From a virus: a stretch of 28,664 nucleotides of DNA. A program made the position numbers and the translations under genes. The stretch is from positions 1 to 28,664 of IMG/VR virus record IMGVR_UViG_3300007734_000546; one strand, written 5' to 3'. The first letter of the stretch is position 1, and every line of letters begins with the position of its first letter. The notes beneath the pieces are model-generated. The model did not search any database and was not told where the DNA came from. It worked only from the letters and a program-made list of their open reading frames with translations. Below are positions 1,856 to 27,221 of this stretch, in pieces.

Positions 1856-1866
1856 AAGGAATCAAT

Positions 1867-2127: not shown

Positions 2128-2136
2128 ACGAAAGGG

Positions 2137-2159: not shown

Positions 2160-2163
2160 CAGT

Positions 2164-2349: not shown

Positions 2350-2351
2350 TC

Positions 2352-7161: not shown

Positions 7162-7176
7162 ATACAGGAGCGTATT

Positions 7177-7908: not shown

Positions 7909-7917
7909 GGAATAACC

Positions 7918-11587: not shown

Positions 11588-11590
11588 TTA

Positions 11591-13318: not shown

Positions 13319-13521
13319 ACGCCCCGCCGTTTGATATTTAAGTGATCACTCGCGCCAGGGCGCGGCGTTTCCATGCGGGGCGGTTGGTACACGGGTCTTT
13401 CCCAAATACTAAACGTTGGCGGCAATGCTTCATGTTTTTTACGTTCTCTTGCTGTCCAAGGTTCAGTAAGATTTAAATCTTTGCGATGCGTTGCATTATT
13501 GTTTAACGAAACAAATGTCAT
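13315..13521 (-). CDS. Small hypothetical protein
   Basis: The 68-residue protein is hydrophilic, with a basic middle (WTARERKKHEALPPTFSIW) and Pro/Arg-rich C-terminus (YQPPRMETPRPGASDH). The ATG at 13521 is chosen over one at 13584. It has GGAG at the right spacing and makes an ATGA overlap with the previous stop. No family recognised. Confidence 0.58.
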   Translation of the reverse strand: MTFVSLNNNATHRKDLNLTEPWTARERKKHEALPPTFSIWERPVYQPPRMETPRPGASDHLNIKRRGV

Positions 13522-13703
13522 GTATTCTCCAATGGTGCTGTACAAGTGTGAATGTTCCATGTGCGTTTGCCACATAGAGGACATAAGTTTTTCTTTAAAC
13601 TAGCTAATGCTGCTTTCTTACCATCGTAGTAGCCTGATTGGTATGCAATCAGCAGCGCATTGCCATCGTCTTTGTAGACCTGTGTATCGTCATCTTCATC
13701 CAT
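13518..13703 (-). CDS. Small zinc-finger-like protein
   Basis: The 61-residue protein has an acidic N-terminus (MDEDDDTQVY). It ends in a compact Cys/His knuckle, CPLCGKRTWNIHTC, with C41, C44, H52 and C54 as likely zinc ligands. AAGGAT precedes the start, which lies inside the end of the previous gene. Such treble-clef knuckles bind nucleic acid or protein. The target is unknown. Confidence 0.65.
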   Translation of the reverse strand: MDEDDDTQVYKDDGNALLIAYQSGYYDGKKAALASLKKNLCPLCGKRTWNIHTCTAPLENT

Positions 13704-14241
13704 TGTTCTTATCCTTTAGCTTTGCTTCAAAGTTTTTCCACGTTTGTGTTGCGCTTGTTGTCCAGCATTCAGCCGCTTCTTGCGCAGTCAGCCCTACCCA
13801 TGTGCGCTGTGGTGAGATGGTGTAAAGGTGCCCTGTGTATTTTTCAGGCACAGCATATTCCACAAGTACGCCATCAATTACCAACGCCACAGGCTCCTGC
13901 GCTGGTTGTGCCAAGGCTTCTTTGTGGAATTCGTTGCCCCCACAATTTGCACACGCAAGATAGTCAAGGTCAGCTTCAGACAGTGCTGATGTAAATTCCT
14001 GCGCTCCGCATTCGTTACAAGCCCACGCCCAATTAGAGTCTTGCGCTGGCTGCGCCAACTTGTCTTGCCATTCGCTTGGGTGCAGCTTAGGCACATAGCC
14101 ATAACGCTCACTAACTTTTTTATTTTCTGCTTCAATAAATTTTTGTGCTGCCCTTCTGCCATCGGGTTCATGGTCTACCAAATTAACTTCGTCTATTGTC
14201 TTGGCAATTGCCGCTTTCTTTTTGCTTTGGTATCCTGTCAT
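13696..14241 (-). CDS. Double zinc-ribbon phage protein
   Basis: The 181-residue protein contains two CxxC pairs, C75/C78 and C97/C100 (ACNECG, CANCGG), which should bind one zinc. They are flanked by two copies of the linker LAQPAQ (62-67, 110-115), a low-complexity joint common in phages of Burkholderiales. The C-terminal part (RTWVGLTAQEAAECW, TWKNFEAKLK) forms a separate small domain. It starts with an ATGA overlap. The modular build suggests a shuffled accessory protein; its function is unknown. Confidence 0.68.
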   Translation of the reverse strand: MTGYQSKKKAAIAKTIDEVNLVDHEPDGRRAAQKFIEAENKKVSERYGYVPKLHPSEWQDKLAQPAQDSNWAWACNECGAQEFTSALSEADLDYLACANCGGNEFHKEALAQPAQEPVALVIDGVLVEYAVPEKYTGHLYTISPQRTWVGLTAQEAAECWTTSATQTWKNFEAKLKDKNNG

Positions 14242-14477
14242 GCTTGTTCTCCTCTGGCCCTGATTGCTGCTTCAATTTCCTGACATTTATCTAGCGCCCA
14301 ATCATCTGGTTCAGTAGCGTTACCTATATCTCTGGCGATCTTGGCGCATTGTTTGCGTTCGTCAGCACGGGCTGCTGCTTCTACCAAGGCGGCGAATTTA
14401 CAAAGGCTTTTATTTTTGCCATCAAATCCGACAAACCCAGCCTTTCGCGCCATGAGAGTAATTTCATCTACGTTCAT
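14238..14477 (-). CDS. Small hypothetical phage protein
   Basis: The 79-residue protein starts with MNVDEITLMARKAGF and has a helical Ala/Cys region (FAALVEAAARADERKQCAKI) typical of a very common phage hypothetical. The ATG at 14477 is preferred over the one at 14510 because GGGGGA lies just upstream and the ATGA overlaps the previous stop. Function unknown. Confidence 0.68.
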   Translation of the reverse strand: MNVDEITLMARKAGFVGFDGKNKSLCKFAALVEAAARADERKQCAKIARDIGNATEPDDWALDKCQEIEAAIRARGEQA

Positions 14478-14698
14478 GGCTTCCCCCAAATAATCAGATA
14501 TGTAATCCATAAACCAAGCACCACCGTAAGCAAGGTTATCAATCCCTTGAATGTGTGGGCGAGATCGTCTATCGGGTCATCTATCTGTGCGTCTTTAAAC
14601 CCGTTGGTGTAGGCATCATTGATTTCTTTGATGCGCTGCTTGCGCACAGGGCAGTCTTTACCTTGTTCGCATTGACCATTTGCGTTACAGCAGTTCAT
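14474..14698 (-). CDS. Small single-TM protein with N-terminal cysteines
   Basis: The 74-residue protein begins MNCCNANGQCEQGKDCPVRK, with four Cys in the first 16 residues that could bind a metal. One C-terminal membrane helix follows (about 51-69, LITLLTVVLGLWITYLIIW). It is a recurrent phage hypothetical. Its gene is linked by ATGA overlaps on both sides. The cytoplasmic Cys head with a membrane tail suggests a membrane-tethered metal-binding protein. Confidence 0.7.
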   Translation of the reverse strand: MNCCNANGQCEQGKDCPVRKQRIKEINDAYTNGFKDAQIDDPIDDLAHTFKGLITLLTVVLGLWITYLIIWGKP

Positions 14699-14790
14699 AG
14701 TAATGCATCCTCGTAGTTATCGGGATTAACAGGTATTTTCTTGTAGGGCTTGTCAGGTAGTGGCGTAGTGGGAAAGGGCCATGTTTTCAT
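14695..14790 (-). CDS. Tiny proline-rich protein (31 aa)
   Basis: The ORF begins MKTWPFPTTPLPDKPYKK and ends YEDALL. ATGA overlaps with both the upstream gene (stop 14787) and the downstream gene (start 14698) strongly suggest it is translated. The peptide is rich in Pro and has no hydrophobic helix, so it may be a short binding motif. It fills what would otherwise be the only gap in this part of the operon. Confidence 0.55.
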   Translation of the reverse strand: MKTWPFPTTPLPDKPYKKIPVNPDNYEDALL

Positions 14791-14999
14791 TTGGCAAGCT
14801 CCTTTAGCATTGCGTCTGCGTCTATGTATGCAAGTTTTGCTCTTTGCTCAGGTGTAACTAATCCAGCATCGTGCATATCTCTTGCCGCAAAACCTTGCAA
14901 TACCAGCCCAGCAAAGTGGTCACGCAAGGTCATGTCCCTTGCAAAGCCGCCTGTCTTGATGTGCCAGTCGGTATAGTCTTTTGCAATTTCAATGTTCAT
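14787..14999 (-). CDS. Small hypothetical phage protein
   Basis: The 70-residue protein has a helical C-terminal half (EQRAKLAYIDADAMLKELAK) and a conserved-looking GGFARDMTLRDHFAGLVLQG segment. That pattern (aMTLRDyFAg..L.g) recurs in small proteins of many Gram-negative phages. ATGA overlaps link it to both neighbours. Function unknown. Confidence 0.68.
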   Translation of the reverse strand: MNIEIAKDYTDWHIKTGGFARDMTLRDHFAGLVLQGFAARDMHDAGLVTPEQRAKLAYIDADAMLKELAK

Positions 15000-15187
15000 T
15001 TGTATTCCTTCAAGCGCGTATTCAAACGCTCTATACGGGTTAGATTGAGGTCAAGCACAGCCTGGGCATACTCAACCGCACCTTCAGCTTCAAGCCGATC
15101 AAGATGTGCCTGTGCAAGTTCTTTGGCAATCACTTCTGCTGGCGTCAGGTCACGCCAGTAGTCCTTCAAAAACTTAAAAAATTTCAT
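14996..15187 (-). CDS. Small hypothetical helical protein
   Basis: The 63-residue protein contains LTPAEVIAKELAQAHLDRLEAE and an amphipathic C-terminal helix, a frequent phage hypothetical. It is ATGA-linked to both neighbours. It has no membrane segment or metal site. Confidence 0.68.
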   Translation of the reverse strand: MKFFKFLKDYWRDLTPAEVIAKELAQAHLDRLEAEGAVEYAQAVLDLNLTRIERLNTRLKEYK

Positions 15188-15375
15188 GGTAATTTAGCCT
15201 CTTTTAGTAGTTCAAGTCTCTCCCGCGCAACGCGCAGGGTGTTGTACCGCTGGTGCAAACGCTCCAGCATGGATACTCTTTTGAGCGTGTTGCGCTCGTT
15301 GTTCAGCATACTCAGCACTTCCTCTTCAGTCAGTGTGGGCAGACGATCATTTAGACTTCGCCAAGTGTTTTTCAA
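15184..15375 (-). CDS. Small helical hypothetical protein, TTG start
   Basis: The 63-residue protein is strongly helical and Arg/Leu/Glu-rich (SMLNNERNTLKRVSMLERLH, then RVARERLELLKE). No ATG lies near the beginning; the likely start is TTG at 15375 with GGAG seven bases upstream. It overlaps the 52-aa upstream ORF by 29 bp. A coiled-coil dimer is likely. Function unknown. Confidence 0.62.
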   Translation of the reverse strand: MKNTWRSLNDRLPTLTEEEVLSMLNNERNTLKRVSMLERLHQRYNTLRVARERLELLKEAKLP

Positions 15376-15505
15376 TTCGTGTCTCCAGTTTGGTAATCAG
15401 ATTGACGCAACGGTCATACGCCCGATAGGTGGCGTTCAACTGGCGCGTGCGAGCTTTGAGTTCGGCCTTGGCCGCTTTGAGTTGTGCTTTCAATTTGTCT
15501 AACAT
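15347..15505 (-). CDS. Small basic coiled-coil protein (52 aa)
   Basis: The ORF begins MLDKLKAQLKAAKAELKART and is Lys/Ala/Leu-rich throughout. It starts behind a strong GGAGG inside the last codons of the helicase gene (stop 15499). Lysine-rich, regularly spaced hydrophobic residues suggest a coiled coil or nucleic-acid-contacting helix. It overlaps the next gene (TTG 15375) by 29 bp. Confidence 0.6.
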   Translation of the reverse strand: MLDKLKAQLKAAKAELKARTRQLNATYRAYDRCVNLITKLETRIEKHLAKSK

Positions 15506-16806
15506 AATTCCTCCATTGCAATATCAGAAATAGCGCGCTTGTCGTGTAGCGCGGCCCAGATGCGTTCGTCCACCGTCTTGTTGGTCAGCATTACGTAGCA
15601 CCACACGTCATGCCGCTGGCCGCTACGATGCAAGCGCCCGATGGTTTGTTCATACAACTCAAGCGACCAGGGCAAGGACAAGAAAACGATCCGGCACCCG
15701 CCATACTGGAGGTTGAGCCCGTGGCCTGCTGACTTGGGGTGGACAAGCAGTAACTCAATGGTGCCTGCGTTCCATCGTTCAATGGCCCGGTCGTCGTCAA
15801 GTGTCTGAGCATGGGGGTAACGCCGCTTGAGTTCGGCCAGTTCCTCTTGATAGTTGTAAACAATAAGCGTGTTAGCACGTTGGTTCTCCTCCAGTAACTC
15901 ATGCAGCCGGTCAAACTTGGCCGTGTCAAACCACACGGGCGTTTGCACCGTCACCCACTTGCCAGGTATCTCCGAGGGCGTCTGGACGGTGTGGTACACA
16001 AACCCGCTGGCAAGCTGCTGCAACTTGCCGGTCACCACGGCGGCGTTAATGGCCGTGATGTCTTGCAGCTTGAAGTCTTTTTTCATGGTGTCGTACGGCT
16101 TGCGGTCGTTCAAATTGCAACGCACTACTACCGTATGAAGCGGAGGCAATCTGTCGCTATACTCACCCGCGTCCAAGACGAAAGTGGCAGGCTTAATCAC
16201 GGACATGACCTTCTCAAGACTGCCCTTACGGGGCATCCACTCGCCAAAGTCGGGGTTGATCAGCACGAAATACTGCTGCATGAAAGCGCCCTTGCTGCGG
16301 CCCAACAGGCTCTGGTCAACGATCTTGCATTGGCCGAACACATCTTCCAAGCCATTGCTGGTGAACGAGCCGGTCAGCCCCCAGCGAATCTTGATGGGCG
16401 CAAGGAATTTCAGCAAGTCTTTAAAGCGCTTGCCGCTGGGGTTCTTGAGGCGGGTCAGTTCGTCGAACACCACGGCGTCAAAGGTGCCCGTGGGCAGGTT
16501 CTCGTAGTTGGTCACCACCACCTGGGCGTTGGACGCCAGCGCAGCAGCCCGCTGCTTGGGCGTGCCCACGGCGACGGCCAACGTCACGTCGGGTGCCCAC
16601 TTGGGCTGCTCGACCGGCCAGACGTCGGTGGCGACCCGCTTGGGGGCCAGCACGAGGAAGCGGCGGGCGTGCCCATCTTTCAGCATGGCCTGCATGGCCG
16701 TGAGCGTGATGGCTGTCTTACCCGCGCCCACAGGGGCGAGGATCATCGCCCTGTCGCGCTCGTACAGGAAGTCAGCCGCCTGCTCTTGGTAGGGCCGCAA
16801 ATTCAT
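15499..16806 (-). CDS. SNF2-type SF2 helicase / DNA translocase
   Basis: The 435-residue protein carries the two RecA-like lobes of SF2 enzymes: Q-motif-like LRPYQEQAADFL, Walker A VGAGKT (26-31), Walker B region VVFDELTRLKN (DELT box), LTGSFTSNG (motif III). Motifs V and VI are AGHGLNLQ and IGRLHRSGQRHDVWCY. Motif order and GRxHRxGQ place it with phage SNF2-like helicases. The ATG at 16806 begins the helicase fold; a longer upstream extension (to 16920) lacks family features. It overlaps the VRR-NUC gene by 35 bp. The pair probably acts together in replication fork or recombination processing. Confidence 0.88.
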   Translation of the reverse strand: MNLRPYQEQAADFLYERDRAMILAPVGAGKTAITLTAMQAMLKDGHARRFLVLAPKRVATDVWPVEQPKWAPDVTLAVAVGTPKQRAAALASNAQVVVTNYENLPTGTFDAVVFDELTRLKNPSGKRFKDLLKFLAPIKIRWGLTGSFTSNGLEDVFGQCKIVDQSLLGRSKGAFMQQYFVLINPDFGEWMPRKGSLEKVMSVIKPATFVLDAGEYSDRLPPLHTVVVRCNLNDRKPYDTMKKDFKLQDITAINAAVVTGKLQQLASGFVYHTVQTPSEIPGKWVTVQTPVWFDTAKFDRLHELLEENQRANTLIVYNYQEELAELKRRYPHAQTLDDDRAIERWNAGTIELLLVHPKSAGHGLNLQYGGCRIVFLSLPWSLELYEQTIGRLHRSGQRHDVWCYVMLTNKTVDERIWAALHDKRAISDIAMEELC

Positions 16807-17056
16807 CGACTTGTTCCTTTGTCCATATACACATATACCTTTGATTGAGCCGCGCCATGTCTGCGGCGAACAGCTTTTGCAACTCTGATAACCTACCGCC
16901 CTTGGTCTTGAGTTCCACAAACCAAGTGCTGCCGTCAGGCAGGCAAGCTATCCTGTCCGCTACGCCCTTGCGCCCTGGGGACGTGAACTTGTAGGTCTTA
17001 CCCCCAAGCCGTTCCACCGCCCAGACAAAATGATTTTCGACATCTTTTTCTTTCAT
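16772..17056 (-). CDS. VRR-NUC family nuclease
   Basis: The 94-residue protein fits stand-alone phage VRR-NUC enzymes: E7, GVADRIA with D34, ELK with E48 and K50, and Q60 form the PD-(D/E)XK-type site. Family members cut branched DNA structures such as Holliday junctions or flaps. The ATG at 17056 gives the usual N-terminus (MKEKDVENHFV). It has no clear Shine-Dalgarno, and a GTG at 17107 would add 17 unlikely residues. It is the first gene of the leftward operon and overlaps the helicase gene. Confidence 0.85.
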   Translation of the reverse strand: MKEKDVENHFVWAVERLGGKTYKFTSPGRKGVADRIACLPDGSTWFVELKTKGGRLSELQKLFAADMARLNQRYMCIWTKEQVDEFAALPRAGG

Positions 17057-17070
17057 GTCAAGAAGTTTAG

Positions 17071-17103
17071 CACAAAAAGTTGTGATATAGTCGTGGCTCA
17101 CAA
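17071..17103. promoter_or_regulatory. Divergent promoter with operator-like inverted repeats
   Basis: A 64-bp gap separates the divergent VRR-NUC and DUF2800 genes. On the plus strand TGATATAGT (17083-17091) is an extended -10 for the rightward operon, with start near 17098. It is flanked by TTGTGA (17080-17085) and TCACAA (17098-17103), a perfect inverted repeat with a 12-base spacer. A second repeat, CACAA-AAAG-TTGTG, occupies 17071-17084. Leftward, TATATC overlaps the same core. A protein bound here would cover both promoters. Confidence 0.6.
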
Positions 17104-17120
17104 ACACTAAAGGACTCTAA

Positions 17121-18248
17121 ATGCAACACTCCAGTATCGTCGGCGGTAGCACCGCCAAGAGGGTAATCAACTGCCCTGGCTCCGTGGCCTTAGTCGCCAA
17201 GATGCCGCCCAAACCCTCAAGCAAGTACGCTGACGAGGGCACGCTCCTACACAACGTCATCGCTGAGATTGTGATGTCCGGCCAACCGCCAGAGCATTAC
17301 CTTGGCACCGTGTACGAAGGCCAGACACTAACCCAAGAACTGATCGACAACAAGTTAAAGCCCGCGCTGGCCGCGCTGGACGAGATCGACCCCAAGCAGG
17401 AGATGGAAATTGAGGCCGAGACAAGCGTTAATTTCGGCGATCTACTGCCTGGTGTGTTTGGTTCAACTGATCTTATCGGTCGCATTGGCACTCGTGCTGT
17501 TGTGCTGGATTGGAAATTTGGCGATGGTGTGGCTGTTGAAGTCGAAGAGAACATGCAATTGATGTTCTACGCAGCAGCGGCCATGCGTACACCGCAAGCG
17601 CAGTGGGCCTTTGAAGGCGTGACCGAGATTGAGATGGTCATTGTGCAGCCGCCAGCAGTTAAGCGTTGGGTGACCACACCAGCGCGCATCGCTGAGTTTG
17701 AATTGCAGTTGGTGCAGGCCGTCAAAATGAGCGAGAAGAAAACCGCCCCTCTGCGCTCTGGCGATCACTGCCGCTGGTGCGCTGCCAAGCCGGTATGCCC
17801 ACAGATGACCGGCGCAGTCGAGCGCGCCTTGCAGACTACCATTGACGCGCTTGACCCGCCGACCATTGCCACCTATCTCAAAAACGCTGATATGCTGGAG
17901 CAGTGGATTACTGATCTGCGGGCCTTGGCGCTCCAGTTGCTGGAGTCTGGGGCCAAGCTGCCTGATTACAAACTGGTCGCCAAGCGTGCGATCCGTTCAT
18001 GGACTGACGAAGACAAGGCCAAGGTCGCCCTGTTTGCGTTCGGTTTAACAGAATCTGAGGTGTTGGAGACTTCCGTGATCTCTCCGGCCAAAGCTGAGAA
18101 GGCGCTCAAAAAGCGCAAGCAGGCTTTGCCGGACGATTTGGTGGTCGCCATCTCTTCAGGTAACACCTTGGCAAGCGCGGATGACCCGCGCCCCGAGGTG
18201 ATGCTCTTGGGTAAGCAATTAACCGCTGCCCTTTCTAAACTTCAATAA
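17121..18248 (+). CDS. DUF2800 PD-(D/E)XK nuclease, Cas4/RecB-like
   Basis: The 375-residue protein has the DUF2800 layout: N-terminal INCPGSV (C18), DEGTLLHNVIAE helix, GVFGSTDLIG (D117), VVLDWKFG (D130, K132) and C-terminal HCRWCAAKPVCPQM (C217, C220, C226). The D/DxK set is a PD-(D/E)XK active site. The four Cys (C18 plus C217/C220/C226) match the Fe-S cluster arrangement of Cas4 and AddB-type nucleases. AAAGGA precedes the start. Its place beside a family A polymerase is common in phages and suggests end processing in replication or recombination. Confidence 0.85.
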   Translation: MQHSSIVGGSTAKRVINCPGSVALVAKMPPKPSSKYADEGTLLHNVIAEIVMSGQPPEHYLGTVYEGQTLTQELIDNKLKPALAALDEIDPKQEMEIEAETSVNFGDLLPGVFGSTDLIGRIGTRAVVLDWKFGDGVAVEVEENMQLMFYAAAAMRTPQAQWAFEGVTEIEMVIVQPPAVKRWVTTPARIAEFELQLVQAVKMSEKKTAPLRSGDHCRWCAAKPVCPQMTGAVERALQTTIDALDPPTIATYLKNADMLEQWITDLRALALQLLESGAKLPDYKLVAKRAIRSWTDEDKAKVALFAFGLTESEVLETSVISPAKAEKALKKRKQALPDDLVVAISSGNTLASADDPRPEVMLLGKQLTAALSKLQ

Positions 18249-18256
18249 GGACTATC

Positions 18257-18892
18257 ATGTCAAATCTAGTAGCGTTTTCCCAAGCGGGCTTGCCCGCAGT
18301 TTCCACCCTCGCATCTTCCCTGCGGGCTATCCAATCCGATGTCGGCCCAGCCGGTACGGTCATCCTGAAAATGGACAAGACCGGCCATTGGGTGTTTGGT
18401 GCAGACCAAACCGAAATCGAAGAGGACAGCACCTGGGCGGTCAACCCTTTCTCTTTTGTCCACGGCTTTATCGCTTGGGGCGATGGCGAAGTGTTGGGCG
18501 AGAAGATGGTGCCCGTGTCCCAACCCCTGCCGGAGTTGGACGTTGCGCCCTTAGCAGCCAAAAAGGGCTGGGAGACTCAGGTGGGTATGAGTCTGAAGTG
18601 TCTGTCTGGCGAAGACAAGGGCATGGAAGCGCGCTTTACGACCACTTCGGTGGGCGGCAAGCGCAGCGTCCAAACCTTGGCCGTGGCCTTGGCAGATCAG
18701 GTCGATAAAGACCAAACCAAACCAGTGCCGGTCGTGCGCCTCAAAAAGGAGCATTACCAGCACAAGTCGTATGGCCGGATTTTTACGCCGGTCTTCGAGG
18801 TGGTGGAATGGTTGACTTTGGAAGGCGAAGCTGAACCCGCCAAGGTGGAAGAAGCACCAGCCCCAAGTCGTCGTCGTCGCGTAGCGGCCTGA
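18257..18892 (+). CDS. Probable phage ssDNA-binding-like protein
   Basis: The 211-residue protein lies between the DUF2800 nuclease and DNA polymerase, where DUF2815-type ssDNA-binding proteins often sit. It has a beta-rich core with aromatic residues (GHWVFGADQTEIEEDSTWAV, then FVHGFIAWGDGEVLG) and KKEHYQHKSYGRIFTPVFEV. A Glu/Pro-rich linker and a basic RRRRVAA tail complete it. That last feature is unlike the acidic tail of bacterial SSB. AAGGAC precedes the ATG; TGATG couples it to the polymerase. The function is inferred mainly from position. Confidence 0.62.
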   Translation: MSNLVAFSQAGLPAVSTLASSLRAIQSDVGPAGTVILKMDKTGHWVFGADQTEIEEDSTWAVNPFSFVHGFIAWGDGEVLGEKMVPVSQPLPELDVAPLAAKKGWETQVGMSLKCLSGEDKGMEARFTTTSVGGKRSVQTLAVALADQVDKDQTKPVPVVRLKKEHYQHKSYGRIFTPVFEVVEWLTLEGEAEPAKVEEAPAPSRRRRVAA

Positions 18893-20805
18893 TGACTCTC
18901 TGGGTTGACTTTGAGACCCGTAGCGCCTGCGACCTAAAAGTCGCGGGCGTTTACAACTACGCCCAGCACGGCACGACCGAAGTGCTGTGTATGTCCTACG
19001 CCTTCGATGATGAAGACGTACAGACTTGGTTGCCCGAGCAGCCGTTCCCCAAACAGGTCGCAGACCATAAGGGCTTGATCTACGCCCACAATGCCGCCTT
19101 TGAGCGCTTAATTTTTTGGTACGTGTTGCAGATCGACTTTGCCCTTGAGCAGTTCGTCTGTACCGCAGCGCAGGCCCGCGCCAATTGCGCGCCTGGTTCC
19201 CTTGAGGACGTTGGCCGGTTCGCTGGCGCGTCCATGAAAAAAGATCACCGTGGTGCCCAGCTAATTCGCAAAATGAGCGTGCCGCCTTACGAGGAGTCGC
19301 CCGAGTTGACCGCCGAGATGGTGGCCTACTGTGAGCAGGACGTGCGGGCCATGCGCGCTATCAGCAAGGCCATGCGGCCACTGTCAGCCCAAGAGTTGGC
19401 AGACTATCATGTCAACGAGCGTATCAACGACCGTGGCGTGCTGGTCGATGTGCCTCTGTGCCAAGCTGCGGTCAAGTACGCCAGCGCTGAGTTGGCCGAG
19501 ATTCAAGAGATCGTCGCCGAGGTTACGGGCGGTGAGATTACCAGCGTGCGCTCCCCTAAGATGCGCGATTGGGTGCTGGCCCGTGTCGGCCCGCAGGCCA
19601 AGAAGCTGATGGAGAAGGATGGAAAATACTCTATTGACAAAACCGTCAGGGCTAACTTGCTACTGATGGACAACTTCGACGAGGTGCCTTATGACGTTCA
19701 AGAAGTTATCCAATGCGCCGACGACCTTTGGGCGTCCTCGGTTGCGAAGTTCAGCCGCCTTGCACAGCTATCAGATGAAGAAGATGGCCGAGTACGAGGT
19801 GCGTTTGTCTTTGCAGGCGGCAGCGCTACTGGACGCGCTTCGTCGTATGGGGCCCAAGTTCACAACTTTACCCGTAAGTGCGCTCAGGAACCCGAAGCCG
19901 TACGAAATAGTATGGTCAGAGGACATGCCATTGTCCCCAAGTACGGCAAGCGAGTCACCGATGTCCTCAAAGGAATGCTCCGGCCCGCCCTTGTACCTAG
20001 TAAGGGTAAACACCTAGTCGTCGCTGATTGGTCGGCCATTGAAGCTAGGGTAAACCCTTGGTTGTCCGGCAAGGGCGACGAGAAGCTGGCGATCTTTGCA
20101 TCCGGCGAAGACGTGTACAAGGTCAACGCCTCGGCGACGTTTGGCGTGTCAGTCGCTGCGGTGACCAAAGACCAGCGCCAGATCGGCAAGGTGCAGGAGT
20201 TAGCCTGCGGCTTTGCCGGTGGCGTCGGTGCCTTTGCAGCGATGGGTCGGGCCTACGGCATCTTGCTGCCTGAGTCAGACGCTAAACGCATGGTTGATGC
20301 GTGGCGTAGGGCAAACCCTTGGTCTGTTCCGTACTGGCAAGACCTAGAATCAGCGTACACCCGAGCGATGCGAAACAAAGGCAAAGAGTTCAGCGCCGGT
20401 CGGGTGACTTACCTGTTCGACGGCCTGCACCTGTGGTATGTGCTGCCTTCTGGCCGCATCCTGTGCTACCCCTACGCCCGATTGGAATCCGAAGGTGTGA
20501 CTTACGCCAAAGCCTCATGGAAACCCGCCGCTGATGCCAAGGAGTGGCCCCGCGCCCGTTTGTGGAAGGGGCTGGCCTGCGAGAACATCACCCAGGCCGT
20601 GGCTAATGACTTGCTGCGCCATTCATGTCGTCAATTGGACGCTGAAAAATATGAAATTATACTCACTGTACATGATGAAATTGTGATCGAAACCGCAACG
20701 CCCGACCCCGAGGCGCTGCGCTTGGTCATGTGTACCCCGCCCGAATGGGCTAAGGGTTTACCCCTAGACGCTGAAGTCTCAATTATGGAGCGATACGGAA
20801 AATGA
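18892..20805 (+). CDS. Family A DNA polymerase with 3'-5' exonuclease
   Basis: The 637-residue protein is a replicative family A polymerase. The N-terminus is a DnaQ-like proofreading domain: WVDFETRS (D6, E8), YAHNAAFERLIF and YCEQDVRAM. Palm motif A is VADWSAIEARV (D379), the O-helix region is RQIGKVQELACGF (R429, K433) and motif C is VHDEIVIE (H594, D595). No 5' nuclease domain is present, as usual in phages. The residue aligned with Klenow F762 is Leu437, and the one aligned with Y766 is Phe441. It overlaps neighbours by one (TGATG) and four bases (ATGA). Confidence 0.92.
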   Translation: MTLWVDFETRSACDLKVAGVYNYAQHGTTEVLCMSYAFDDEDVQTWLPEQPFPKQVADHKGLIYAHNAAFERLIFWYVLQIDFALEQFVCTAAQARANCAPGSLEDVGRFAGASMKKDHRGAQLIRKMSVPPYEESPELTAEMVAYCEQDVRAMRAISKAMRPLSAQELADYHVNERINDRGVLVDVPLCQAAVKYASAELAEIQEIVAEVTGGEITSVRSPKMRDWVLARVGPQAKKLMEKDGKYSIDKTVRANLLLMDNFDEVPYDVQEVIQCADDLWASSVAKFSRLAQLSDEEDGRVRGAFVFAGGSATGRASSYGAQVHNFTRKCAQEPEAVRNSMVRGHAIVPKYGKRVTDVLKGMLRPALVPSKGKHLVVADWSAIEARVNPWLSGKGDEKLAIFASGEDVYKVNASATFGVSVAAVTKDQRQIGKVQELACGFAGGVGAFAAMGRAYGILLPESDAKRMVDAWRRANPWSVPYWQDLESAYTRAMRNKGKEFSAGRVTYLFDGLHLWYVLPSGRILCYPYARLESEGVTYAKASWKPAADAKEWPRARLWKGLACENITQAVANDLLRHSCRQLDAEKYEIILTVHDEIVIETATPDPEALRLVMCTPPEWAKGLPLDAEVSIMERYGK

Positions 20806-21513: not shown

Positions 21514-23796
21514 ATGAATTTTCTCCATTATCTCGAAAACATTGCGCCCGAGGGCGAAGTTATTTTGTTCGTGCGGCAAAAGCCCATCCTTAAGGACGGT
21601 GAAACCCAATACCATGCCGATGGTGCAATCAAATGCGCTTGGCCTGCGTTCCTGCCCAAGAAGTGGAAGCCCGACCAAGCGTGGTACTGCAACACCGGCT
21701 GCTTCATCATCGACCGATTCGACGAGGGCAAGCCCGCAGCCAAGGCCGATGCCTGTGAGCGGGTGGCGTTCTTGGTGCTGGATGACGTGGGCACCAAGGC
21801 CAAGGTGCCACCCATCAAGCCGACGTGGATCATGGAGACATCACCCAACAACTACCAATACGGCTACACCTTCGCGCTGGACGACCAGCCCATGAAGGGC
21901 GAATTCAGCGCGGCCATTGTCGCCATTGCAGAAGCAGGCTACACCGACGGCGGCGCGATCAACCCCGTGCGTAACTTTAGACTGCCTGGTTCGATCAACC
22001 TCAAGCCTGGGCGTGATCGCTTTGCGTCTTCTTTGGTTGAGTTTCACCCAGAGCGGGAATTTTCGTTGGCCGAGATATGCACCGCTTTGGGCGTGGTGCC
22101 CAATCCAGCCGACACCGCCACCGTGCGCCCGATCCGGCTCACAGACGACGGCGGCGACGACGTGCTGGCGTGGACGGCAGCGCGTGGTGACTTGCTGGAG
22201 AAAGGCAACAGCAGCGGCTGGTGGGGCGTCGTTTGCCCCAACAGCGGCGAGCATAGCGACGGCAACCCGATGGGCCGGTATCACCCCGTAAACCGCGCCT
22301 ATTGCTGCCTGCATGAGCATTGCGCCCATCTTGATAGCGTGGCCTACCTTGCGTGGGTGGAAGAGCAGGGCGGGCCTAAGCGCTCGCATGGCCTGCGCGA
22401 CGAGTTGCTGGCCGCAGTGATGGAAAACACCCTTGCCAAGTTGACCCCGACAGTTGAATACCCCGACGACGCCGCGACAGTCATTGCCGAGGTGGAACAT
22501 CGTGAATTGGGCCGTGTGGAGATGTCCGGCTGGTTTGAGCGGTTTGCGTATATACAGAACGACGACGCCTACTTTGATATGCAAGACCGGCGCGAAGTAA
22601 TGCGTAAGACCTTCAACGCCCTGTTCCGGCATATCAACTGCAAGTCGCGCCACGGCAAGCACCCCAAGATCGAGGCGTCCAATTCCTTTGACGAGTACCG
22701 CCAAGACAAAGGTGCAAGGGCGCTCGTAGGTATCACCTACGCCGCAGGCGAGTCGGTGCTGGTGGCGCGTGAGGGCTTGGTGTACGGCAACCGCTGGCGC
22801 GACGCTCGCCCCGAGCCGGTGGCCGGTGACGTGTCTGCGTGGCTGCGCCATGTCGAGCGCATGGTGCCGATTGAATTCGAGCGCGAGCATTTGCTCAACG
22901 CCTTGGCGCATAAGGTGCAATTCCCCAGCCACAAGATCAACCATGCAATTTTGCTGGGCGGCAATCATGGGTCAGGGAAAGATACCCTGTTTGCCCCGTT
23001 CTTTTGGGCCATTGGCGGCAAGGCCAAGGCAAATTGCTCCTTGGTCAAGAATGAAGACCTCAATTCGCAGTGGGGCTATGCCCTTGAGTGCGAAGTGATG
23101 GAGATTGCCGAGTTGCGCCAAGCAGAGGCCAAAGACCGCAGAGCGCTGGAGAACACCCTCAAGCCCATCATTGCAGCGCCGCCTGAGTTGCTCATGGTCA
23201 ACCGCAAGGGCTTGCACCCATACTATGCCCTGAATCGCGTGTTCGTGGTGGCGTTTTCCAATGAGCGCGTGGCGATCTCCCTGCCATCAGAAGATCGTCG
23301 CTGGTTTGTTTTATGGTCTGAAGCAGGCAAGCTGCCCGAAGCAGAGGCGGTCGCCCTTTGGAATTGGTACGAAAATCGTGGCGGCTTTGCAGCAGTGGCC
23401 GCTTACCTGCACTCGCGTGACGTGTCGGCTTGGAATCCCAACGCAGCGCCGCCGATGACTGAGGCCAAAGCCATCATGGTCGAGCACGGCATGAGCGGCG
23501 CTGAGTCGTTCTTGGTTAACCTGATCAAAGCCCGCCAGCGCGCATTCTCCAGTGGCGTGGTCGGCGCGCCCTTCTACGCTATCTGCGATGAATTGCAGCT
23601 ATACGCGCCAGCAGGGATCAAGATCGTCCCCCCTGCCCTTATGCACGCGCTGAAGGAAGCGGGCTGGGTGGATATGGGCCGCTTGGCCTCGCGTGAGTAT
23701 CAGACCAAAAAGCATATTTTCTGCGCGCCTGAGCTTGCCAAAAGCAATAAATCCGACCTGCGCAGGGCCATAGAAAAAGCCCCCGAAGGGGCTTAG
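21514..23796 (+). CDS. Primase-helicase, AEP-like N-terminus and D5-like helicase
   Basis: The 760-residue protein has an N-terminal primase-like part. It includes VAFLVLDDVG and ETSPNNYQYGY, resembling RepB-type archaeo-eukaryotic primases, and PVRNFRLPGSIN. A CCLHEHCAHLD cluster in the middle may bind zinc. The C-terminal SF3/D5-like ATPase has Walker A GGNHGSGKDT (K489), LECEVMEIAELRQAEAKDR as Walker B region, and VVAFSNERVAI. The ATG at 21514 follows AAGGA; an upstream ATG at 21433 lies inside the previous gene. It is the last gene of the replication run and its 3' end contains the terminator of the opposing operon. Confidence 0.86.
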   Translation: MNFLHYLENIAPEGEVILFVRQKPILKDGETQYHADGAIKCAWPAFLPKKWKPDQAWYCNTGCFIIDRFDEGKPAAKADACERVAFLVLDDVGTKAKVPPIKPTWIMETSPNNYQYGYTFALDDQPMKGEFSAAIVAIAEAGYTDGGAINPVRNFRLPGSINLKPGRDRFASSLVEFHPEREFSLAEICTALGVVPNPADTATVRPIRLTDDGGDDVLAWTAARGDLLEKGNSSGWWGVVCPNSGEHSDGNPMGRYHPVNRAYCCLHEHCAHLDSVAYLAWVEEQGGPKRSHGLRDELLAAVMENTLAKLTPTVEYPDDAATVIAEVEHRELGRVEMSGWFERFAYIQNDDAYFDMQDRREVMRKTFNALFRHINCKSRHGKHPKIEASNSFDEYRQDKGARALVGITYAAGESVLVAREGLVYGNRWRDARPEPVAGDVSAWLRHVERMVPIEFEREHLLNALAHKVQFPSHKINHAILLGGNHGSGKDTLFAPFFWAIGGKAKANCSLVKNEDLNSQWGYALECEVMEIAELRQAEAKDRRALENTLKPIIAAPPELLMVNRKGLHPYYALNRVFVVAFSNERVAISLPSEDRRWFVLWSEAGKLPEAEAVALWNWYENRGGFAAVAAYLHSRDVSAWNPNAAPPMTEAKAIMVEHGMSGAESFLVNLIKARQRAFSSGVVGAPFYAICDELQLYAPAGIKIVPPALMHALKEAGWVDMGRLASREYQTKKHIFCAPELAKSNKSDLRRAIEKAPEGA
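23777..23794 (-). terminator. Intrinsic terminator of the leftward small-gene operon
   Basis: Read leftward, AAGCCCC-TTCG-GGGGCTT forms a perfect 7-bp stem with a UUCG loop and is followed by TTTCT (down to about 23772), a rho-independent signal. In the rightward direction no T tract follows. It lies in the last codons of the converging primase-helicase gene, so it should stop leftward transcription from entering the replication genes. Confidence 0.82.
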
Positions 23797-23855
23797 TCTA
23801 GGTCGAACAGGATCGCCAGGATCGCGGCCACCAGGGCCGCAGCGATTATGAGCAT
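23793..23855 (-). CDS. Possible 20-aa membrane peptide
   Basis: An ATG inside the end of the 44-aa gene opens a 20-codon frame that is almost entirely hydrophobic (MLIIAAALVAAILAILF then DLD). It stops just at the terminator. The length equals a single membrane helix. The ribosome site is weak and such short frames arise by chance, so it is only a candidate. Confidence 0.3.
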   Translation of the reverse strand: MLIIAAALVAAILAILFDLD

Positions 23856-23980
23856 TCGAGCGCCCGCCTTGCGGCGGCGCGTGTCGCTTCGTTGTCGTCG
23901 TCCAGCAGGGCGCGCAGCACGTCCTCTAAATGGTTTATGCGCGCGATGTAATGCGCCTCTTCAAAATTTTCGTCGTTCAT
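23846..23980 (-). CDS. Small hypothetical protein (44 aa)
   Basis: The peptide begins MNDENFEEAHYIARINHLED and continues with an acidic/Ala-rich helix ending RALECS. The ATG at 23980 has GGAG five bases upstream and an ATGA overlap with the previous gene, so it is chosen over an ATG at 24046. Predicted as a soluble helical protein. Function unknown. Confidence 0.6.
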   Translation of the reverse strand: MNDENFEEAHYIARINHLEDVLRALLDDDNEATRAAARRALECS

Positions 23981-24084
23981 AAGTACTCCAATAGGATAGC
24001 GGCCAAGATCAGGCCAATTGAGACAGCCAGCAGCATATCGGCCCAAGGGCGCGCCACTGGTTCGGGTTTGTAGTGCTGTCTCAT
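23977..24084 (-). CDS. Small single-TM membrane protein (35 aa)
   Basis: The ORF has a basic soluble N-terminus (MRQHYKPEPVARPWAD) followed by one membrane helix (about 17-33, MLLAVSIGLILAAILLEY). ATGA overlaps join it to the previous gene (stop 24081) and the next gene (start 23980). The positive-inside pattern predicts a cytoplasmic N-terminus. The overlaps make translation likely. Role unknown. Confidence 0.58.
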   Translation of the reverse strand: MRQHYKPEPVARPWADMLLAVSIGLILAAILLEYL

Positions 24085-24407
24085 GCTTCGACCTCCATTG
24101 AATCGACGCCCTGAGGTACGCTCACGCGGTCGCTGAGTCCCTCATAAAATCCGGCCAGGTTCGCGTCTCCATAGGGTGCTGCGCCAGCCTTAAAAAGGCG
24201 CCGGTTCGAGTTAAGCGCATAATACTGGCTCACGTACTCCGCAGGGCTCATATTGGCCCCCATGGCCGGATACAGGCGGCCAGTGCCGCCCTTTGGCCGC
24301 ACCGGCTTATGCTTGCCGGTAATCTTAGCGGCCAGAGCTTGCACGGCCATAACGCGCTCGAGTGACGCGAGTTTATAGGTGGTGGTTTCAATTTTCAGGT
24401 TTAGCAT
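24081..24407 (-). CDS. Hypothetical protein (108 aa)
   Basis: The protein has a Lys-rich helical N-terminal half (KLASLERVMAVQALAAKITG). A Gly-rich basic turn (KPVRPKGGTGRLYPAMG), a YVSQYYALNSNRRLFKAG segment and an acidic end (SMEVEA) follow. GGAG lies upstream of the ATG at 24407. It overlaps the preceding gene by 20 bp. No family recognised; the basic Gly-rich part could contact nucleic acid. Confidence 0.62.
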   Translation of the reverse strand: MLNLKIETTTYKLASLERVMAVQALAAKITGKHKPVRPKGGTGRLYPAMGANMSPAEYVSQYYALNSNRRLFKAGAAPYGDANLAGFYEGLSDRVSVPQGVDSMEVEA

Positions 24408-24675
24408 ACTTTAGCTCCAGGTTTATAGCGTTTTCAATTTTGCGTTGGTTATAGCCGTCGGCGAGCTTATCGGCCAGCATGGCCGCATCGATGGCTTCAG
24501 GCGTGGGCGGTGGCGTGTCAGCAACTTGCTTGATGTCGCCGATGTTGGCGTGCGGGCGTAAATGCCGCGCAAGCGCAATAGCGTCGTTTTTGTCTTTTGC
24601 GGCCACTAAAATCGTGGGATGGCAAAAGCCCTTAGCGCCGCGAAAACACGGCAAAGCGATTAGGTATTTGATCAT
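24388..24675 (-). CDS. Hypothetical protein (95 aa)
   Basis: The protein starts MIKYLIALPCFRGAKGFCHP, then TILVAAKDKNDAIALARHLR, a small alpha/beta pattern. A Pro-rich linker (TPPPTPEAIDAAMLADKLAD) and a C-terminal helix follow. The ATG at 24675 has GGGGA upstream and an ATGA overlap, so it is preferred over 24756. Function unknown. Confidence 0.65.
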   Translation of the reverse strand: MIKYLIALPCFRGAKGFCHPTILVAAKDKNDAIALARHLRPHANIGDIKQVADTPPPTPEAIDAAMLADKLADGYNQRKIENAINLELKYAKPEN

Positions 24676-24773
24676 GCTATCCCCTTGGTTTTGGGTTGTT
24701 GCAGCGGCACAGCCATCCACGTCCGAGTATTTTGTAGGTAAGATGCCCGCAGGCACATTTCTGATGTTTTCAT
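24672..24773 (-). CDS. Tiny protein (33 aa) with a strong ribosome site
   Basis: The ORF begins MKTSEMCLRASYLQNTRTWM and ends with a basic KTKGIA. A near-perfect GGAGGTGA precedes the ATG, and ATGA overlaps link it to both neighbours, so translation is likely. The peptide is too short for a family call. Confidence 0.55.
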   Translation of the reverse strand: MKTSEMCLRASYLQNTRTWMAVPLQQPKTKGIA

Positions 24774-24925
24774 GCTGTCACCTCCAACATAGATAGGCCG
24801 CTCACTCGATAGCACGCGCCATCGCTGCGCTGCACGTCGATGGTGCCAGCGCGCCGAATAGCAAGGATTAGCACGCGCTCCATGCGCCCGTACAGGCTGA
24901 TATGGATATATTGGCCTGCTTTCAT
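24770..24925 (-). CDS. Small basic beta-rich protein (51 aa)
   Basis: The ORF begins MKAGQYIHISLYGRMERVLI, then AIRRAGTIDVQRSDGACYRV, an alternating pattern suggesting a small beta-barrel. ATGA overlaps link it with both neighbours. The basic beta pattern might bind RNA or a protein partner. Function unknown. Confidence 0.6.
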   Translation of the reverse strand: MKAGQYIHISLYGRMERVLILAIRRAGTIDVQRSDGACYRVSGLSMLEVTA

Positions 24926-25122
24926 TTTGCGACCTCATCGGCGCGGTTCGCCACATATTGCACAGCAGCATCGACCACCGGCACGCCAGTATGATAAAAA
25001 TGCAGCGCTGAAGGCCATTCAATCCGGCCAGCGTGCGCCGGTTCGGCTGTGATCACGGCATCGTTAAATTCGGCCAAGTAGCGCGCTTGGCGTTGGGCTT
25101 TGGTTTCACCATAATTTAGCAT
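24922..25122 (-). CDS. Small hypothetical protein (66 aa)
   Basis: The protein begins MLNYGETKAQRQARYLAEFN and contains HAGRIEWPSALHFYHTGVPV and a short Ala/Val helix. GGAG stands six bases before the ATG. It is ATGA-linked to the next gene. It is the first gene after the hairpin at 25158-25183. Function unknown. Confidence 0.65.
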   Translation of the reverse strand: MLNYGETKAQRQARYLAEFNDAVITAEPAHAGRIEWPSALHFYHTGVPVVDAAVQYVANRADEVAK

Positions 25123-25157
25123 AATTTACTCCAATGTATAAAGGCCAGGATTAGCCC

Positions 25158-25183
25158 GCAAGCGGCCGTCGCTGGCCGCTTGC
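25158..25183. other. Perfect 10-bp inverted repeat between leftward genes
   Basis: GCAAGCGGCC (25158-25167) and GGCCGCTTGC (25174-25183) are exact complements with a GTCGCT spacer. The leftward transcript would form a very stable stem-loop right after the stop of the cysteine-rich gene. No T tract follows it, so it is not a classic terminator. It could protect or process the mRNA, or act as a protein site. Confidence 0.72.
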
Positions 25184-25191
25184 AGATAACC

Positions 25192-25851
25192 CTACGCTGC
25201 CAAGCGCAGATTGATAACCCGATGGCGCGTGCCGTGGGCAGGGAACGCCACAATGGCCGTGCGCTGGCGTTGGCATAGTTGACAGGTGGCGCAGCTCACA
25301 TCGTCGCGCTGCGTCGCGGGGCAGATAACAACCGACCGGCCCGCTGGCGTTTTTGTGTTTTCTGTGGTAGTGCTAGGCACGACGACGACGACAGGCCCGC
25401 ATTCAGTATCGGCCAGCGCATCGGCATCGGCGAGATTATTGGCGCTCAAATTGACAGTGAAACCCCATGCATTGGCGTGCTTGATCCATGCCAAGCTTGT
25501 AGCATCGCGATGGTGCGAATAGGTAAAGCCTCGGCGGCCAACATTGGCCGCGACCAATTGGCCCAATTTGACGGCATCGATTGTGCCGCCCACTTGGGGT
25601 AGATCGCCAGCTTGATTGTGCCGCCACAATTGGCCTTCGGGCAGCGCTGCGATGGCTTGGGTGAACTGGCCCCAATCTGTGCCGCGAGTGCCATTGGAGA
25701 CAGCGGCCCAATGTAGCGCCAATGGCCCGCTGGCCGCATAGCACTCTGCGCGCATCGCGCAGTCTGTGGGGCAACTGTCGCGCTCTGTGGTGCTAACGGG
25801 TATCGGACCGGTTTTTACATTGGCCGATTTTAAGGTTAAGTGTACTTGCAT
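25192..25851 (-). CDS. Cysteine-rich phage protein of unknown function
   Basis: The 219-residue protein starts at ATG 25851 (AAAGG upstream); an earlier ATG at 25881 adds ten residues lacking a site. Early residues NVKTGPIPVSTTERDSC are followed by C27-x3-C31-x5-C37-Y and GPLALHW. The middle has conserved-looking HNQAGDLP, GFTYSHHRD and GFTVNLSANNL. The end has C177 and C187-x2-C190-x2-C193 with IVAFPAHG. Two Cys triads suggest metal or Fe-S binding. The family recurs in phages (motif-level resemblance to mycobacteriophage gp88-type proteins and to proteins listed as DUF7227), without a known reaction. Confidence 0.72.
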   Translation of the reverse strand: MQVHLTLKSANVKTGPIPVSTTERDSCPTDCAMRAECYAASGPLALHWAAVSNGTRGTDWGQFTQAIAALPEGQLWRHNQAGDLPQVGGTIDAVKLGQLVAANVGRRGFTYSHHRDATSLAWIKHANAWGFTVNLSANNLADADALADTECGPVVVVVPSTTTENTKTPAGRSVVICPATQRDDVSCATCQLCQRQRTAIVAFPAHGTRHRVINLRLAA

Positions 25852-25878
25852 GGTGTGCCTTTTACTGTAGTTTATGAA

Positions 25879-25896
25879 CAAGGGCCGAAGCCCTTG
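25879..25896 (-). terminator. UUCG hairpin, weak terminator or attenuator
   Basis: Read leftward, CAAGGGC-TTCG-GCCCTTG is a perfect 7-bp stem with a UUCG loop, followed by TTCATAAAC. The U content downstream is poor, so termination would be partial at best. It lies between the first (60-aa) and second genes of the leftward operon and may reduce expression of all later genes. Confidence 0.55.
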
Positions 25897-25907
25897 GATG
25901 GTTTGAA

Positions 25908-26090
25908 TTACGCGATGAATTCAGGGTTGTTTACGACGCCATACGCTAGCGCGATGGCCATAATTTCATCTTGCGATTTCTTGCTGCGCGCACTGCGATA
26001 CAGTGCGGACAGTGCGCGTGCAACATAATTTGCGCCGAAGTGCTGCATTTTTAACGTGACTGCAACCTCACGTTTTTCTGATTTTGTCAT
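25908..26090 (-). CDS. Small basic protein, first gene of leftward operon
   Basis: The 60-residue protein begins MTKSEKREVAVTLKMQHFGA. It continues with ARALSALYRSARSKKSQDEI and a C-terminal helix (IMAIALAYGVVNNPEFIA). AGAGG lies upstream of the ATG. It is the nearest gene to the strong leftward promoter, so it should be the most expressed protein of the operon and among the earliest. A basic first-gene product could be a regulator or host takeover factor. No family recognised. Confidence 0.68.
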   Translation of the reverse strand: MTKSEKREVAVTLKMQHFGANYVARALSALYRSARSKKSQDEIMAIALAYGVVNNPEFIA

Positions 26091-26109
26091 TGTGTGCCTC
26101 TACTTTATT

Positions 26110-26129
26110 GCATGGCGATGTTGCCATGC
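26110..26129. promoter_or_regulatory. 7-bp inverted repeat at the leftward start site
   Basis: GCATGGC (26110-26116) and GCCATGC (26123-26129) are exact complements spaced by six bases. The repeat coincides with the expected transcription start (near 26127). It could be an operator that blocks RNA polymerase, or form a 5' stem-loop that stabilises the mRNA. Confidence 0.6.
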
Positions 26130-26133
26130 CTGT

Positions 26134-26161
26134 ATTGTAAGGGATTCTTTTACACTGTCAA
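26134..26161 (-). promoter_or_regulatory. Strong sigma70-type leftward promoter
   Basis: Read leftward, a perfect TTGACA -35 (26161-26156) is followed, after a 16-base spacer, by TACAAT -10 (26139-26134). It stands about 40 bp before the ATG of the 60-aa gene, with no other gene between. The match predicts strong expression by host RNA polymerase early in infection. Confidence 0.85.
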
Positions 26162-26200
26162 CAACTATTTTCTAGGTGTTTACCCTTAGTCGGTGAAAAT

Positions 26201-26233
26201 TGTAGGTACCTATCGTGGCGATTTGTAGGTACT
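26201..26233. repeat. Operator-like TTGTAGGTAC direct repeat
   Basis: TTGTAGGTAC occurs at 26201-26210 and 26224-26233, 23 bp apart (about two helical turns). The first copy extends into the perfect palindrome TAGGTACCTA (26204-26213). A related TAGGTG lies at 26174. Position 40-75 bp upstream of the leftward -35 suggests an activator or repressor site. Confidence 0.55.
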
Positions 26234-26318
26234 GGCGTTTTTATGCGGTTCTCCAATGGGGGCGATTAAATGTGGGTCATATTGTCATTAATTTGATCTT
26301 AACTTATCTAAACCTTAC

Positions 26319-26353
26319 ATTTCATAATGTGAAATCTTACAATACTTACAATA
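26319..26353. repeat. AT-rich inverted repeat and tandem 9-bp repeat
   Basis: ATTTCA-TAATG-TGAAAT (26319-26335) is a perfect inverted repeat of operator size. It is directly followed by two adjoining copies of CTTACAATA (26336-26344, 26345-26353), each containing a TACAAT -10-like element for the plus strand. The layout suggests a regulated rightward promoter or a DNA unwinding element. Confidence 0.55.
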
Positions 26354-26387
26354 TGGGGTAGAGCGATTTGAAAATGGCTTTTTGGGT

Positions 26388-26566
26388 GCCCACATGACCT
26401 ACCGCCCACAATCGCTGCATTTTGCGCGCTGCGCATTGGCGCATAGTTAACGCACGCTATGCGCTTGCATTGGCATGGCCCACATGGCCCACATCGATGG
26501 CCGGTGGCCGGTGGCCGGTATCGGACAACATGCAAATAGATTGGCATAGCCTACATGGCCCACATC
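26388..26566. repeat. GCCCACA repeats, 27-bp duplication and GGCCGGT tandem repeat
   Basis: GCCCACA occurs at 26388 and 26404. GGCCCACAT occurs in tandem at 26477-26485 and 26486-26494, and again at 26557-26565. The last three sit in two 27-bp copies (26469-26495, 26540-26566) differing at two positions. Between them GGCCGGT is repeated three times in tandem (26499-26519). This dense layout in a non-coding stretch points to multiple binding sites for one or more proteins. Confidence 0.75.
26439..26464. other. 8-bp inverted repeat in control region
   Basis: GCGCATAG (26439-26446) and CTATGCGC (26457-26464) are perfect complements around a 10-base spacer that includes TTAACG. The element immediately precedes the first 27-bp repeat. 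It could form a cruciform or be a dimer-binding site. Confidence 0.65.
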
Positions 26567-26578
26567 CGCCAGGGAATA

Positions 26579-26665
26579 TGCTTGCCAATCTGCTAACTAT
26601 ATGCTTGCCATTCTGACTAGCATTACCCTTGCCATTTTGCCTAGGAATTGCTTGCCATTTTGCGT
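26579..26665. repeat. Four-copy 23/24-bp iteron array
   Basis: CTTGCCA occurs at 26581, 26604, 26628 and 26651, with steps of 23, 24 and 23 bp. The following bases are also similar (consensus CTTGCCATTTTGCSTAG). Two copies are closest to each other (third and fourth). Such regular spacing, about two helical turns, is typical of iterons for an origin-binding or terminase-binding protein. It ends about 125 bp upstream of the small terminase gene. Confidence 0.75.
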
Positions 26666-26789
26666 AGGATTTCAGCCGAGGGGGGAGGGGTAGGGCCGAG
26701 CGATTGGGCCAACGTAAACGGAGGGGCCACAAACAAAATTTTTTTTAATATAAAATCCACGCACACGCCTCCCCGGCGCAGGAGAACAA

Positions 26790-27221
26790 ATGTTCAAATC
26801 ACTGCCGCTCACTGTCCGACACGTCCAAGCGACTGAATCGCGCTTACAGGCGATATACGACGCTGCCAAGCTGGGACTCAAAGGCGACACGCTGGCGCTA
26901 GCCTCTGGAATGCGGCCTGAAGAGTACCGTCACCTGTGCCAATTTGACCCACTGGCCGAGATGGCCGCGATCAAGGGCAAAGCAGACGGCGAGCGCGAGA
27001 TGGCCGACATCCTGCACAAAGCCGCCCGCGAGGGCGACGCTAAGGCGGCGCTTGAGATTCTGAAGCATCAGCACGGCTGGGTCGCCAAGCAGTCCATCAC
27101 GGTGGACATCGACCAGCGCATATCCATCACGCAAGCGTTGCAGGAAGCGGAGATGCGGGTTGTAGATGTAGTCGCCCACGAACTAGACTCAAATAATGCA
27201 GTCAACCAGATACAGCGCTGA
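26790..27221 (+). CDS. Small terminase subunit (probable)
   Basis: The 143-residue protein lies just before the large terminase and has an N-terminal HTH-like segment (about 29-52, GLKGDTLALASGMRPEEYRHL). A helical oligomerisation-type middle follows (IKGKADGEREMADILHKAAR, then GDAKAALEILKHQHGWVAKQ) and ends in a charged tail. This matches small terminase layout: DNA-binding head, helical core and a C-terminal part that contacts the large subunit. AGGAG precedes the ATG. It probably binds the packaging site, perhaps the repeats just upstream. Confidence 0.82.
   Translation: MFKSLPLTVRHVQATESRLQAIYDAAKLGLKGDTLALASGMRPEEYRHLCQFDPLAEMAAIKGKADGEREMADILHKAAREGDAKAALEILKHQHGWVAKQSITVDIDQRISITQALQEAEMRVVDVVAHELDSNNAVNQIQR

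Follow-up and report, generated by a model that had tools for sequence, protein, structure and literature searches.

A leftward operon of small phage genes with a covarying RNA hairpin reused at several junctions

How is a run of very small phage genes, whose content changes from one relative to the next, arranged for expression, and what might such genes do? The question is raised by the IMG/VR virus record IMGVR_UViG_3300007734_000546 (28,664 bases; the whole stretch analysed, referred to here as the window), in which a single leftward unit on the minus strand (26161-23777) runs from a sigma70-type promoter through ten open reading frames (ORFs) to a UUCG intrinsic terminator. The original prediction, made from the sequence alone, had described an operon at 23777-26090 as a self-contained unit of promoter, hairpins, UUCG terminator and overlapping small genes. 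The gene and terminator coordinates were confirmed, the promoter lying just beyond (26161-26134), and the predicted anatomy proved correct and stronger than had been claimed. What is new here is a junction rule, whereby genes of this operon that neither overlap nor abut are separated by a hairpin, together with a covarying RNA element that is specific to the operon. The signals and hairpins, the latter computed by script, are as follows, with lengths in nucleotides (nt).

26134..26161, minus strand: sigma70-type promoter, TTGACA-16-TACAAT, 11/12 consensus bases
26110..26129, minus strand: 5′ leader hairpin, -12.9 kcal/mol, z -5.1
25879..25896, minus strand: UUCG hairpin between genes 1 and 2 (56-nt gap), -12.4 kcal/mol, z -3.7
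25145..25194, minus strand: conserved intercistronic hairpin, outer stem beginning at the gene 2 stop codon; covariance model E 1.7e-20, the window copy having belonged to the training set of the model
23777..23794, minus strand: intrinsic terminator with UUCG loop, AAGCCCC-UUCG-GGGGCUU-UUU, -16.8 kcal/mol

Protein searches gave 111 viral loci with related genes, and 66 sequences, the window included, keep both flanking genes (the small terminase side and the primase) and provide the operon intervals compared; loci were fetched using DUF7227, the family of gene 2, and gene 7, which inflates how often these two genes appear. In these 66 virus contigs the slot between the small terminase and the primase holds an operon 2.1-3.9 kb long in which 7-17 genes were called (median 60 amino acids, aa), a count that takes in some ORFs upstream of the promoter; genes of relatives were predicted with a heuristic script whose scoring favours 4-nt overlaps. 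The 415 junctions in the related operons comprise 245 overlaps, 92 gaps of 0-19 nt, 8 gaps of 20-39 nt and 70 gaps of at least 40 nt, giving two classes, overlapping or abutting (337/415) and at least 40 nt apart (70/415), with few (8) between. Stems of at least 8 base pairs (bp) were found in 47 of 54 distinct gaps of 60-110 nt, against 2.1 expected from shuffles, and stems of at least 7 bp in 13 of 16 gaps of 40-59 nt, against 0.2 expected. In the window operon the description of ten ATGA-linked genes was borne out by ten minus-strand ORFs with exact 4-nt ATGA overlaps at five of the nine junctions, the remainder being two overlaps (20 and 10 nt) and two gaps (56 and 69 nt), both of which carry hairpins. 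Stop/start overlaps are common in bacteria, occurring in more than 30% of E. coli gene pairs (PMC7538156), and for this reason ATGA overlaps by themselves are not special; the filling of the other junctions by a hairpin is the new finding. Relatives place hairpins of different sequence where the window has the hairpin at 25879-25896.

The conserved element between genes 2 and 3 folds at -26.5 kcal/mol (25150-25192, z -5.1) and is represented 69 times across 51 operons, each of which has one to three copies, starting at a median of 6 nt past the preceding stop codon with the next start codon approximately 36 nt further. Within the inner stem 11 of 13 pairs change on both sides and the covariation score was reached by 0/500 shuffles, the sequences having been picked for forming the stem, a choice that raises the paired percentage without favouring the variety of pair types. 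Flanking sequence lengthens the stem to approximately 21 bp with a one-base bulge in many copies, including that of the window, placing the stop codon in the outer stem, while in other copies this outer stem is weak or absent. The 21-pair structure scored above every shuffle and every slide. At least four outer pairs were observed in 42/57 cases as against 31/57 in a flank-swap control, and since the control already gives 31/57 the outer stem is less strongly supported than the inner stem. Two pairs of the element are mostly U.G and the covariance model scores 73 bits on the sense strand of the window compared with 29.6 bits on the antisense strand, indicating that operon-strand RNA is the likely functional form.

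The covariance model detects the element within the operons of relatives, while in 22 whole virus records (up to 38.8 kb) there was no strong match outside the operon, the positions of whole-record matches being converted by hand from locus ranges. The element sits behind unrelated genes, the same 3′ flank being found ahead of gene 4, of gene 3 or of a TreK homolog, and after DUF7227 or other genes. A tie to the DUF7227 gene itself was rejected, as distant DUF7227 loci are without the element, which therefore belongs to the operon rather than to DUF7227. No Rfam family matches the window at its gathering score. The element was also rejected as an intrinsic terminator because no U-tract directly follows the stem, the next letters being CUAAUCCUGG. 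A long stable intercistronic stem starting at a stop codon is as would be expected of a 3′-end protector, an insulator or a boundary set by RNase III or RNase E; mRNA processing or insulation is the most likely role of the element.

The operon promoter was the sole 11/12 site among the stretches scanned (1-20000 and 23000-27000), other sites reaching at most 10/12, and a promoter-like site scoring 10-12/12, mostly the identical TTGACA-16-TACAAT, is present in 32/66 related operon intervals. The terminator hairpin recurs at the same position in 20/66 intervals. Plausible Shine-Dalgarno sequences precede 9/10 starts, that of the 20-aa ORF being weak. The ORFs are given in operon order, with the ratio of non-synonymous to synonymous substitution rates (dN/dS) against relatives.

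25908..26090, minus strand: gene 1, 60 aa; 28 relatives, dN/dS 0.22; 28 viral loci
25192..25851, minus strand: gene 2, 219 aa, DUF7227 (PF23872); Pfam 1.2e-83, seven invariant cysteines
24922..25122, minus strand: gene 3, 66 aa; 4 relatives, dN/dS 0.17; 57/93 substitutions at codon position 3
24770..24925, minus strand: gene 4, 51 aa; 19 relatives, dN/dS 0.12; ATGA overlap with gene 3
24672..24773, minus strand: ORF 5, 33 aa, unproven; good Shine-Dalgarno sequence and ATGA overlap, without relatives
24388..24675, minus strand: gene 6, 95 aa, two-part fusion; dN/dS 0.16
24081..24407, minus strand: gene 7, 108 aa; 55 relatives, dN/dS 0.28
23977..24084, minus strand: gene 8, 35 aa, predicted single membrane span (hydropathy); 24 relatives, dN/dS 0.26
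23846..23980, minus strand: gene 9, 44 aa; 18 relatives, dN/dS 0.13
23793..23855, minus strand: gene 10, 20 aa, predicted single membrane span; 27 relatives, dN/dS 0.18

The label of "about ten tiny genes" suits the seven ORFs of 20-66 aa and not the three larger ones (219, 108 and 95 aa). Purifying selection acts on 9/10 of the ORFs, the 20-aa membrane peptide among them. In aligned DNA all nine ORFs that have relatives (9/9) display a third-position excess of substitutions, and dN/dS lies between 0.10 and 0.28 across the nine; the dN/dS test is built on protein hits and may favour conservation, and the codon-position test, built on DNA alignments, gave the same outcome. For gene 10, 117/151 substitutions fall at codon position 3 with no indels (chi2 p 8.5e-30). 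ORF 5 has no relative at the protein or DNA level among the fetched loci and is unproven as a gene. Two peptides (35 and 20 aa) have Kyte-Doolittle means over 19 residues of 2.4 and 2.8, respectively, in keeping with the two likely membrane proteins of the original prediction. Gene 6 is a fusion of two parts: residues 1-51 have an 82% match on two further viral contigs, where that stretch stands alone, and residues 54-95 match the resident gene of close relatives.

The expectation that most of the genes have no known family held: for nine of them, the small operon proteins, Pfam, PHROGs, NCBIfam and PADLOC gave no match that could be relied on. The largest belongs to a known family, DUF7227, which had gone unnamed. 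None of the ten operon proteins matches PADLOC at E up to 1, and genes 4 and 7 found no match among named phages. The predicted structure of gene 7 is poor, with a predicted local distance difference test (pLDDT) value of 63.6.

The phage itself appears to be a P22-like podovirus, its coat protein matching the P22 coat family (2.6e-38). Megablast against named phages found no close DNA relative of the window, and the single weak match given by blastn does not fall in the genes of interest. Of the named genomes found, Podoviridae sp. ctNMl277 (MW202483, Manatee Spring) stands nearest, with a primase 49% identical at 96% query coverage. Another phage bearing DUF7227 has Dishui Lake as its source, and judging from these two sources the window phage would be a freshwater one.

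Gene content of the operon turns over rapidly. Clustering of the called operon genes gave 90 clusters with at least two members and 153 single calls, some of the latter spurious or upstream of the promoter, while 96 pairs with primases 97-99.5% identical share on average a fraction of only 0.46 of their operon genes, in keeping with the variable content that had been anticipated across related phages and is expected of an accessory cluster for host interaction. DUF7227 went uncalled in 10/66 intervals, at least one of which (L071) carries it and was mis-called. The corresponding slot of MW202483 carries an annotated 5-cytosine DNA methyltransferase (L139, 10042-11019), a close relative (L088, 5447-5701) has a TreK-family protein inside the operon (PF24229, 5e-18), and the slot of one relative (L077, 6742-7323) holds a RusA-like resolvase (phrog_3007, 1.2e-25). 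A 75-aa cysteine-containing protein (cluster 3; L014, 3346-3573, and relatives) is present in 45/66 operons and is not in the window.

Gene 2 is a full-length DUF7227 protein (residues 1-214; 280.6 bits, the curated cut-off being 27). DUF7227 occurs in 181 named phage records, all below 60% identity to gene 2, and, in bacterial genome assemblies, at 25 loci that include several from Variovorax; no papers on DUF7227 were found. The cysteines C27, C31, C37, C177, C187, C190 and C193 and the segment WRHNQAGDL are invariant in 39/39 aligned members. A confident AlphaFold2 model (pLDDT 94.5) resembles an open barrel, with the radical S-adenosylmethionine (SAM) protein QueE as its top structural matches (Z 6.1 and 6.0 on a DALI-like scale), while SuiB, SkfB, spore photoproduct lyase and anSME match with Z below QueE. 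In common with QueE, SkfB and spore photoproduct lyase, gene 2 has a three-cysteine cluster near the N terminus, and its predicted structure may be a partial triosephosphate isomerase (TIM)-like barrel of the same kind. GP88 (PF17338) is matched by 7/39 DUF7227 members (best 2.2e-7), the window protein being without a match, and viral fold matches of gene 2 include GP88 proteins and one Gp37/Gp68-like protein (E 1.3e-4). A profile comparison of DUF7227 with DUF5131 (Gp37/Gp68, PF07505) failed (hhalign probability 0.7%), and a sequence search of the PDB with both families returned no matches. It is hypothesized that gene 2 may be a radical-SAM-like barrel protein related to GP88, and possibly an iron-sulfur enzyme of that kind, the canonical motif being absent. 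Several weak GP88 matches in bacterial genomes (L169-L176, L177-L184) sit inside strong DUF5131 genes, and this overlap hints that GP88 and DUF5131 may be related.

The joint reading, which is held with moderate confidence, is of an accessory operon read by host RNA polymerase in which tiny genes are coupled, hairpins insulate or process the transcript and the products may be early and host-directed. It builds on what the sequence shows, namely the promoter, the terminator, nine selected genes, the ATGA overlaps, the fast turnover and the operon-confined covarying hairpin. Host RNA polymerase would transcribe the operon leftward from one strong sigma70-type promoter to the UUCG terminator, with genes of an overlapping block translationally coupled such that the tiny proteins would be made together. 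At non-overlapping junctions the hairpin at or near the stop codon would insulate the next ribosome-binding site and would also serve for processing or stability (by RNase III-like cleavage or by protecting the 3′ end), dividing the transcript into separately dosed units in the manner of the RNase III sites of the T7 early region. The classical precedent is the cleavage of early T7 transcripts by RNase III (Dunn and Studier, 1973, cited in PMC5371410). The window operon shares with the T7 early region a single strand, a host-type promoter, many small genes, intercistronic hairpins and an end terminator. It differs in that the window phage is a P22-type podovirus with genes and sequence unrelated as far as tested and in that one covarying element is reused at several junctions. 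The T7 region is transcribed by host RNA polymerase and processed by RNase III.

With less certainty, the products would be made early and act on the host in takeover or counter-defence, both membrane peptides might act in the cell envelope and gene 2 might be an iron-sulfur, radical-SAM-like enzyme. Terminal-repeat regions that encode proteins such as TreK serve host takeover. TreK itself is terminal-repeat-encoded in staphylococcal phages (PMC5618024). A role in takeover or counter-defence fits because of the turnover, the gene size, the host-type promoter, the same-slot methyltransferase of MW202483 and the TreK homolog of L088, such that the role put forward in the original prediction is plausible and the operon is probably a host-takeover kit. 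The small host-interaction genes of phages (reviewed in PMC11323111) are likewise accessory genes of high turnover encoding proteins below 100 aa, although no homology to any characterized one was found.

Several observations weigh against the joint reading. No operon gene matches a known anti-defence family, the PADLOC lists being mostly of defence and not counter-defence, and the heuristic gene caller somewhat inflates the overlap count in relatives. The likeness of gene 2 to radical SAM proteins is moderate and common to other barrels, unrelated TIM-like barrels scoring Z 5.5-6.0, nearly the value of QueE, while its C27/C31/C37 cluster is CX3CX5C rather than the canonical CX3CX2C. There is a real possibility, short of being probable, that this is an ordinary accessory region of mostly dispensable genes with diverse metabolic or regulatory roles, not specifically directed at takeover or defence, in keeping with the nine genes without a family match and the RusA-like resolvase in the slot of one relative; against this, all the conserved genes are under purifying selection and the fast turnover is typical of arms-race genes.

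Other explanations concern the hairpins alone. They could be mainly hinges at the DNA level, short homologous border palindromes for the recombinational exchange of cassettes with no role in mRNA, and they do lie at borders where both flanking genes assort independently. This is rather unlikely given that the conserved U.G pairs and the strong strand asymmetry of the model score point to operon-strand RNA, and a fixed distance to the upstream stop (median 6 nt) suits a role in mRNA. That they are partial terminators or attenuators reducing transcription of downstream genes is very unlikely; the stems between cistrons are very stable, but no U-tract follows them in the window or the listed relatives, whereas the operon-end terminator has one. 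A speculative and unlikely suggestion, from an element that is operon-confined and reused behind unrelated genes, is that it may mark both where the mRNA is processed and where cassettes for host takeover are exchanged, in which case new tiny genes would enter with ready-made dosage control. The covarying hairpin offers a testable model of dosage setting in a gene block of ever-changing content, as well as a marker for such operons. With 90 clusters and 153 unclustered calls in a sample of 66 operons, short phage genes for which family libraries have hardly any names become countable, and the easily recognized slot provides a practical hunting ground for takeover or counter-defence factors in environmental phages. 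Elsewhere in the window a further UUCG hairpin lies at 1831-1852 on the plus strand, directly past the stop of an ORF ending at 1826.

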